Positions 24,412 through 25,480 of a stretch of 38,770 bases of DNA are shown piece after piece. The stretch spans positions 1 through 38,770 of the IMG/VR virus record IMGVR_UViG_3300025520_000129; one strand, 5' to 3'. The position numbers and the translations under genes are program-made. The DNA is from a virus. The notes under the pieces are model-generated. The model ran no database searches, was not told where the DNA came from, and worked only from the letters and a program-made list of their open reading frames with translations. How positions within the stretch are numbered: position 1 is the stretch's first letter; each line of letters starts with the position of its first letter.

Positions 24412-24435
24412 GCCGCCTGACGGCGTGATGCAGAT

Positions 24436-24473
24436 AAGGGGCCGGGCCGGACGGCTAGGCGGGCCGGCCCCTT
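24436..24473 (+). terminator. hairpin terminator downstream of major capsid gene
   Basis: AAGGGGCCGG (24436-24445) and CCGGCCCCTT (24464-24473) form a perfect 10-bp stem around an 18-nt loop, 24 bp after the capsid stop, and TCTC follows the terminal TTT. It is the best intrinsic-terminator-like structure in the window. Partial termination here would raise capsid message over the downstream connector and tail messages. Confidence 0.6.
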
Positions 24474-24515
24474 TCTCGATCACACCTTTCCCCCGCCCCT
24501 TGCACGGAGAGACCG

Positions 24516-24881
24516 ATGTCCCGCAGGAAGACCGCCAGCGCACAGCCGCCCGCTGCTGCTGCCGCACAGACTACCCAGGCCGCCGCCGAGGCGGTCGTGA
24601 CCCAATCCACGTTGGGGGACGGGGATGCGACGGGGGCGGCGCAAGAAGCCGCCTCGGCCACCGCCGCCCCTCAAGCGCCCGCCCCCGACGTGGTGAAACC
24701 CAAGGCCAAGGCGAAGGGCCACTTGCTTCGCGTCATGGGCCCGGCCAAGGGCCGCTGGCGCGCGGGTCGCAAGTTCGGACCCGAGCCGGTGGACATCCCC
24801 GTGGACGAGCTGACCGAAGACGACCTGGCCAAGCTGGAGGGCGATCCCGAGCTGACCGTCAGCATGGTCGAAGCCGACTGA
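24516..24881 (+). CDS. FluMu gp35-like protein with Ala-rich N-terminus
   Basis: The protein has 121 residues. The first 65 are low-complexity Ala/Thr/Gln/Pro. The C-terminal 50 residues (GHLLRVMGPAKGRWRAGRKFG, then DIPVDELTEDDLAKLEGDPEL) resemble the small domain found in Mu gp35/FluMu head-region proteins. It follows the major capsid gene as in Mu. Function is unknown. GGAGAG lies upstream of the ATG. Confidence 0.7.
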   Translation: MSRRKTASAQPPAAAAAQTTQAAAEAVVTQSTLGDGDATGAAQEAASATAAPQAPAPDVVKPKAKAKGHLLRVMGPAKGRWRAGRKFGPEPVDIPVDELTEDDLAKLEGDPELTVSMVEAD

Positions 24882-24896
24882 CAATCCCGAGCGAAA

Positions 24897-25031
24897 GGAT
24901 CAGTCGCGAACCTGCGGAGCAACGGACGTGCCAAACATAGGGGTCCGCCGCAGATGATCCGAGTAGGCCAGTCCGGGGCGGTCCGGAACGCGAACGTCGC
25001 AAGGGGGCGTGACAGCCGGGAGAGTACCGGC
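24897..25031 (+). ncRNA. candidate structured RNA between head genes
   Basis: A 170-bp gap carries nested stems: GGATCA (24897-24902)/TGATCC (24955-24960), CTGCGG (24912-24917)/CCGCAG (24948-24953), and CGGAC (24923-24927)/GTCCG (24943-24947), 17 bp in all, closed by a 15-nt loop. Three small hairpins follow: CCGG 24973-24976/24983-24986, GCGA-ACG-TCGC 24990-25000, and GCCGG 25015-25019/CCGGC 25027-25031. No convincing ORF fills the gap. It could be a cis-regulatory leader of the gp36-like gene or a phage RNA. A motif called Mu-gpT-DE has been described downstream of gpT; membership is untested. Confidence 0.5.
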
Positions 25032-25051
25032 ACCCTTAAACCGAGGACCCA

Positions 25052-25480
25052 ATGCCCTACGTCACCCTTGCCCAGCTGACCGACCGCTTCGGAGAGCAGA
25101 TGCTGATCTCGCTCACCGATCGCGGGACGGACGCGCTTGGGGTGATCGACACCGACGTGGTGGACCGGGCCCTGGCCGAGACCGACGCCCTGATCGATGG
25201 CTACCTCGCGCGCCGCTACGCCCTGCCGCTAAGCGTGGCCCAGCCGATGCTGGTGGGCGTGGCCGGCGCGATCACGATCTACAACCTGCACCTCTTCGAG
25301 GCCCCGCCGAAGATCGAGGCCGACTACAAGGAAGCGATCCGCACCCTGACGGCCATCGCCCAAGGCACGATCACCCTGACCGCCGCCGGGGTCGAGGCCC
25401 CGTCCACCGGCTCCATGGGCGTCCAAATTACCGACCGTGAGCGGCCCTTCACCGAAGACAACCTCAAGGGCTTCATCTGA
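25052..25480 (+). CDS. head completion protein, DUF1320 (Mu gp36)
   Basis: The 142-residue protein matches DUF1320: YVTLAQLTDRFGEQMLISLTDR, VDRALAETDALIDGYLARRYALPL, and ITIYNLHLF. It is a connector-type protein at the head-tail joint. A GAGGA ribosome site lies four bases before the ATG, just past the structured intergenic region. Confidence 0.9.
   Translation: MPYVTLAQLTDRFGEQMLISLTDRGTDALGVIDTDVVDRALAETDALIDGYLARRYALPLSVAQPMLVGVAGAITIYNLHLFEAPPKIEADYKEAIRTLTAIAQGTITLTAAGVEAPSTGSMGVQITDRERPFTEDNLKGFI

Follow-up and report, generated by a model that had tools for sequence, protein, structure and literature searches.

The locus examined here raises the question of why 170 bp without an obvious gene should lie within a phage head operon. 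The window, i.e., the whole 38,770-nt stretch of DNA that was analysed, corresponds to positions 1 to 38,770 of the IMG/VR virus record IMGVR_UViG_3300025520_000129 and contains a Mu-like head module (portal, neck, protease, and major head protein (MCP) genes) surrounding the gap. The gap, positions 24882 to 25051, separates a gp35-like gene (24516-24881, + strand; phrog_27280, E = 1.3e-19, with a weak sub-threshold match to Pfam FluMu_N) from a gp36-like head-tail adaptor gene (25052-25480, + strand; phrog_195 (PHROG 195), E = 8e-41). A preliminary description had argued that other junctions in this operon overlap or are only a few bases long, and that retention of 170 bp therefore implies function. 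The account of the other junctions was imprecise, since the MCP-gp35 junction measures 104 bp (24412-24515), and the argument from retention is weak because most relatives are without the gap. The 104-bp junction itself contains a strong GC hairpin, AAGGGGCCGG..CCGGCCCCTT (24436-24473), directly 3' of the MCP gene, which is terminator-like with a short T run and for which the pattern scan made no call. At the window copy of the element described below, the pattern scan found neither a promoter nor a terminator pattern, so it is presumably co-transcribed.

As the preliminary description had stated, there is no convincing gene in the gap: stops are present in each frame in 27 to 33 of 36 relatives, and a coding gene was rejected on this basis. 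Pseudoknot-driven read-through of the gp35 stop codon was also rejected, the frame being open in the window and closed by stops in loci L001 and L092. The stems previously drawn are all present in the sequence. GGATCA/TGATCC, CTGCGG/CCGCAG, and CGGAC/GTCCG are nested, with 17 bp in total, and are followed by three hairpins, TCCGG/CCGGA, ACGTC/GGCGT, and GCCGG/CCGGC. However, the fold of the single sequence is not significant (z = -0.46; 57 of 200 shuffled sequences fold equally well), and the minimum free energy structure differs from the nested stems. The case for a structured RNA thus rests on comparison.

Scanning IMG/VR with the major head protein produced 80 loci, in most of which the gp35-gp36 gap is short or unrelated; a clear relative of the element was recognisable in only four (L001, L009, L014, and L020). 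Conserved boxes from these four were used for pattern searches of viral contigs and GTDB genomes, which yielded about 40 distinct copies. The main patterns fixed GCGAAAG, UCGCGA, AGUAGG, or half of the terminal hairpin P7 and imposed no pairing in stems P2, P3, P5, or P6; one further pattern fixed a single form of P2 and added no new locus. In the resulting alignment A2 (36 sequences, not filtered for P2 pairing), 89.5% of cells are paired compared with 74.5% in shuffled alignments, and 104 cells show double changes compared with 25.5. For each of five measures, all 500 shuffles stayed below the observed value, a positive outcome for the test of covarying pairs that had been proposed beforehand, and sliding the partners by 1 to 3 columns reduced pairing to 25 to 43%. 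In the well-aligned helices, G-U pairs outnumber A-C mismatches by 15 to 5, modest numbers that favour an RNA of the + strand.

Comparison of the relatives gives good support for a folded RNA of approximately 150 nt in the gap, the family of which we refer to as class I. The covariance-model match extends over positions 24881 to 25035 (+ strand, as are all features given here). The element begins with a conserved 5' box, UCCCGAGCGAAA (24885-24896), in which GCGAAA is invariant in A2. P2 is formed by GGAUC(A) (24897-24902) and (U)GAUCC (24955-24960): all five pairs have changed on both sides, 97% of cells are paired, and its forms in relatives include GGATC/GATCC, GGTTC/GAACC, GAACC/GGTTC, GGAAC/GTTCC, GGCTC/GAGCC, and CGGGG/CCCCG, among others. 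P3, CUGCGG (24912-24917) with CCGCAG (24948-24953), is retained in nearly all copies with altered sequence, the mean best helix being 5.0 bp compared with 2.9 bp in shuffled sequences. P4, CGGAC (24923-24927) with GUCCG (24943-24947), lies in a variable region and is a direct reading of the window only. The conserved single-stranded box GAGUAGG (24961-24967) follows P2; its AGUAGG is invariant in A2, AGTAGG having been within the search patterns. The P5 hairpin, UCCGG-GGCGGU-CCGGA (24972-24987), covaries and is under-counted by the alignment because its loop length varies, P6, ACGUC..GGCGU (24994-25010), has double changes at three of five pairs with 94% paired, and the terminal hairpin P7, UGACA-GCCGG-GAGAGUA-CCGGC (25010-25031), has double changes at three of five pairs with 99% paired and recurs in unrelated phages. 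A further helix, P1, between GCGA (24891-24894) and UCGC (24904-24907), would form a pseudoknot with P2. It has zero covariation and is unformed in 4 to 7 of the 36 sequences; a viral scan without the P1 constraint added no loci beyond the first scan, with P1 present in all of them, and the UCGC strand is frequently missing from members detected via the 3' hairpin. Comparison shows P2, P3, and P5 to P7 in the fold of the family.

Class I copies combine a covarying P2 next to GCGAAA and GAGUAGG with P6 and a P7 bearing UGACA and a GARAGA loop. Three variants (L119, L325, and L338) keep the 5' domain and have a different 3' end. A covariance model, R1, gives the window copy a score of 130 bits (E = 1.2e-37, model positions 1-152) and finds nothing else significant in the window. 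Copies outside the training set were detected with E values of 1e-12 to 1e-31, and among these unseen relatives, L352 and L353 carry the boxes with new compensatory P2 pairs, GGACC/GGTCC and GATCC/GGATC, respectively. R1 was positive in 10 of 395 Rhodobacteraceae genomes (about 2.5%) and in none of 397 other sampled genomes of the phylum, and a search of plasmids gave no match. A genome or phage typically carries a single copy.

The 4227 covariance models of Rfam 15, used at gathering thresholds, gave no match to the element in the window, in 17 relative loci, or in 12 element-bearing loci, the only hits being to tRNAs in the neighbourhood, and a relaxed E-value gave no relevant match for the window region or the L113 copy. 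Class I is a phage RNA family absent from Rfam 15, and no literature on it was found among open-licence papers. The preliminary description had offered two identities, a member or relative of the Mu-gpT-DE motif or a new phage RNA. The Mu-gpT-DE motif is a structured RNA described in the head operons of Mu-like phages, and the setting of the window copy, in a Mu-like head operon close to gpT, is what such a member would have. Against membership, class I RNA fails to match Rfam 15 at either threshold and is found also away from gpT, in slots that are not Mu-like; in phage Mu itself the gp35 and gp36 genes overlap, which leaves Mu without such a gap. We regard membership as having a negligible probability. 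Covariation together with absence from Rfam 15 supports the second identity, a new phage RNA.

The class I RNA is distributed as an optional component. The gap of L002, whose MCP is 96% identical, is only 4 bp, L003 (MCP 91%) has a tRNA-Met(CAT) in place of the class I RNA, and L028 has a tRNA-Gly in the gap. The window and L001 are 92.5% identical in MCP DNA and 91.6% in gp36 but only 74% in the RNA, whereas L001 and L020 are 91% identical in the RNA and 80.6% in MCP DNA. These discordant identities indicate a module swapped independently of its neighbours, and on this comparison we consider the class I RNA to be an accessory, modular passenger exchanged among phages. The preliminary description had named two outcomes that would count against it, short or unrelated gaps in related phages and stems without covariation. 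Most relatives do have short or unrelated gaps, but covariation is clear, and the two together point to an RNA that is real but optional.

The gp35-gp36 slot holds other passengers in other phages. A different gap of approximately 100 nt is present in the Mu-like relatives L012 (5303-5405), L013, L016, L019, L025, L030, L040, L049, L052, and L063, with a recurring hairpin, CCTGCC(C/T)GGCGGCG..CGCCGCC(A/G)GG, that may represent another structured element in this slot. Another passenger is a family of small ORFs beginning MTTxVxVxAxHGWPV..., found in L017 (5300-5627), L022 (4277-4746), L287, and L310, for which there was no Pfam match.

The 5' box of class I copies usually lies within a few bases of the end of the upstream gene, and the end of P7 is usually about 15 to 30 nt before the next start codon, just above the ribosome-binding site. 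The downstream gene varies and may encode gp36, an Acb2/Tad1 family protein, a tail-assembly-chaperone-like protein, or a DNA clamp, so no one gene is a fixed regulatory target. In many copies it encodes an Acb2/Tad1-hairpin protein (Pfam PF24729; E = 7e-17, 1.3e-17, and 1.5e-8 in the three downstream genes tested), of a family whose members act against CBASS as sponges for cyclic nucleotides (PMC12043709). Close relatives of this Acb2 have either the class I RNA or a P7 hairpin about 20 nt upstream and distant ones do not; the link is confined to one lineage and may reflect common descent. Further slots lie 3' of a terminase gene in L338, between tail genes in L245, L260, and L297, and ahead of a DNA-clamp gene in L290. 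Comparison across these loci shows class I RNAs next to tRNA genes, genes of the Acb2 family, and structured RNAs of other kinds, and in some places no gene is present that they could regulate. In L119 a second structured RNA comes after the class I RNA and precedes an intrinsic terminator; this second RNA is present also in L122, where a terminator-like hairpin was recognised by eye only. In L353 a tRNA-Met(CAT) gene begins about a dozen bases or less after the class I RNA and is followed by an oppositely oriented ORF, perhaps belonging to another prophage integrated there. These three contexts do not fit the idea that the element regulates one specific gene located 3' of it.

Some individual loci have additional features. 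The second RNA of L119 and L122 has a 9-bp closing stem, AGAGCGCGG/CCGCGCTCT, with 127 to 163 nt between the stem ends, a 3' ACCA or ACCT, and an internal GGAGTAGCG box. In L446 (Rhodobacteraceae genome G384, contig C2), ORFs on the opposite strand follow the class I RNA and a tRNA-Met(CAT) gene, and one of them resembles a head protease, which suggests that the tRNA gene of one prophage served as the integration site of another. In Bradyrhizobium phage ppBdUSDA122-1 (L343, 2897-3049), the annotated CDS of a 659-aa hypothetical protein encloses the class I RNA, as a result of either a misannotation or an embedded RNA.

Hairpins of the P7 type, UGACA-[5 bp]-GAGAGA or GAAAGA-[5 bp], also occur outside the class I RNA. 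Where viral contigs matched half of the hairpin, the stem was completed at 93 of 105 places. The hairpin lies in intergenic DNA that carries no annotation, in phages of Cronobacter, Pseudomonas, Stenotrophomonas, Klebsiella, Acinetobacter, and Phaeobacter as well as in phages recorded from cyanobacteria. It occupies a 77-nt slot flanked by two tRNA-Leu genes in MD18, lies between tRNA-Gly and tRNA-Trp in Mwe-JY26, and a related form in Alexa is in a non-coding stretch where the next gene is convergent. Some of the non-coding stretches are several hundred bases long and carry at least two copies; one to four or more UGAC-stem-GAAAGA hairpins were seen in those of L346 (2300-3030, Stenotrophomonas phage BUCT708), L340, L363, and L358. 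When P7 was removed from 134 contexts, the remainder formed clusters of 40 (class I) and 20 (mostly tandem neighbours) and otherwise mostly singletons, indicating many different 5' domains joined to a single 3' hairpin type, the members of which may be homologous. Another 5' domain, GCAGCGGGnAnACGTCC..CCCAGCGTGAG, precedes the same terminal hairpin in L197, L250, L258 (3460-3610), and L271, and in L258 it lies directly 3' of the class I RNA. We tentatively suggest, as a possibility and not as the expected outcome, a superfamily spanning phages of alphaproteobacteria, gammaproteobacteria, and cyanobacteria, in which a constant UGACA-stem-GARAGA-stem would follow varied 5' domains, the members would act in trans as RNA counter-defence or host take-over factors and be carried singly, in arrays, or in tRNA clusters, and class I would be one family.

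For the window, the gap is probably a stand-alone accessory non-coding RNA gene of approximately 150 nt, with a product that is likely set free from the operon transcript to act in trans. Such a gene would travel in the late operon in the manner of a "moron", its RNA would be processed from the late-operon transcript to a discrete form with P7 as its 3' end, and the RNA may then act on host machinery or defence. The neighbourhood of the copies makes counter-defence our leading guess for the role, and it is put forward as a guess with some way to go before it could be called probable. Another trans-acting role, as a sponge for CsrA through GGA in the loops, was set aside because, to our knowledge, CsrA is absent from most Rhodobacterales and from cyanobacteria.

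The spacing to the next gene also fits a 5'-UTR element, which tells against the stand-alone reading, and the RNA could instead be a cis-acting mRNA element for processing or stability, or a translation leader for gp36, acb2, or another next gene. However, compact phage genomes would give this spacing anyway, the upstream stop codon is equally close, the downstream genes are mutually unrelated, and the element is found also ahead of tRNA genes and other RNAs; such a cis role in the mRNA seems to us improbable. A cis-acting role in transcription, in which the nascent RNA would make RNA polymerase read through termination as do HK022 put and lambda nut/boxB, draws on the resemblance of P7, with its 5-bp stem and purine loop, to a boxB-type hairpin. 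Class I shares with those elements a short GC stem, a purine-rich loop, and a location in phage operons, and long stretches of non-coding DNA near phage repressor and early genes (Medea1, BUCT708, and mEp390) often contain related hairpins, as do tRNA clusters; the untranslated RNA of such regions could need protection from termination. Yet sequence and architecture differ from those of nut/boxB and put, the early region of HK022 at the expected location of putR is dissimilar by eye, and close relatives keep the same operon without the RNA. There are also copies with nothing downstream to read, that of L119 preceding an intrinsic terminator and Alexa having no later gene on the strand. Antitermination is in our judgement unlikely.

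A site for recombination or cassette exchange, acting at the DNA level by folding as single-stranded DNA, would explain the mosaic spread of the element, which lies where genes meet, next to passengers that are swapped, and is exchanged as well; integron attC sites and T4-type promoter-early stem-loops are models for such sites. The excess of G-U over A-C, modest as the numbers are, points away from DNA, as do the conserved unpaired boxes and the complex multi-stem fold. No linked recombinase was found, and there is usually one copy per phage and not flanking repeats. We think a DNA-level site very unlikely and retain the trans-acting accessory RNA as the preferred reading.

Class I gives phage biology a structured RNA family that is well supported and that Rfam 15 lacks; its fold is defined, its covariance model can be used directly, and known anti-defence genes are among its neighbours. 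The recurrence of P7 in intergenic DNA without annotation, across phages with little else in common, provides a handle on phage RNAs missed by gene-centred annotation. If the proposed action in trans is true, RNAs of the class I type would be candidates for RNA-based counter-defence. Among known phage RNAs, rnaC and rnaD of T4 are comparable in being accessory structured RNAs of about 120 to 140 nt, annotated in the T4 record within a tRNA cluster; kinship was rejected because R1 does not match them and no sequence similarity is visible. GOLLD and ROOL are much larger than the class I RNA, which has no match in Rfam, but they resemble it in being structured non-coding phage RNAs that are often close to tRNAs.
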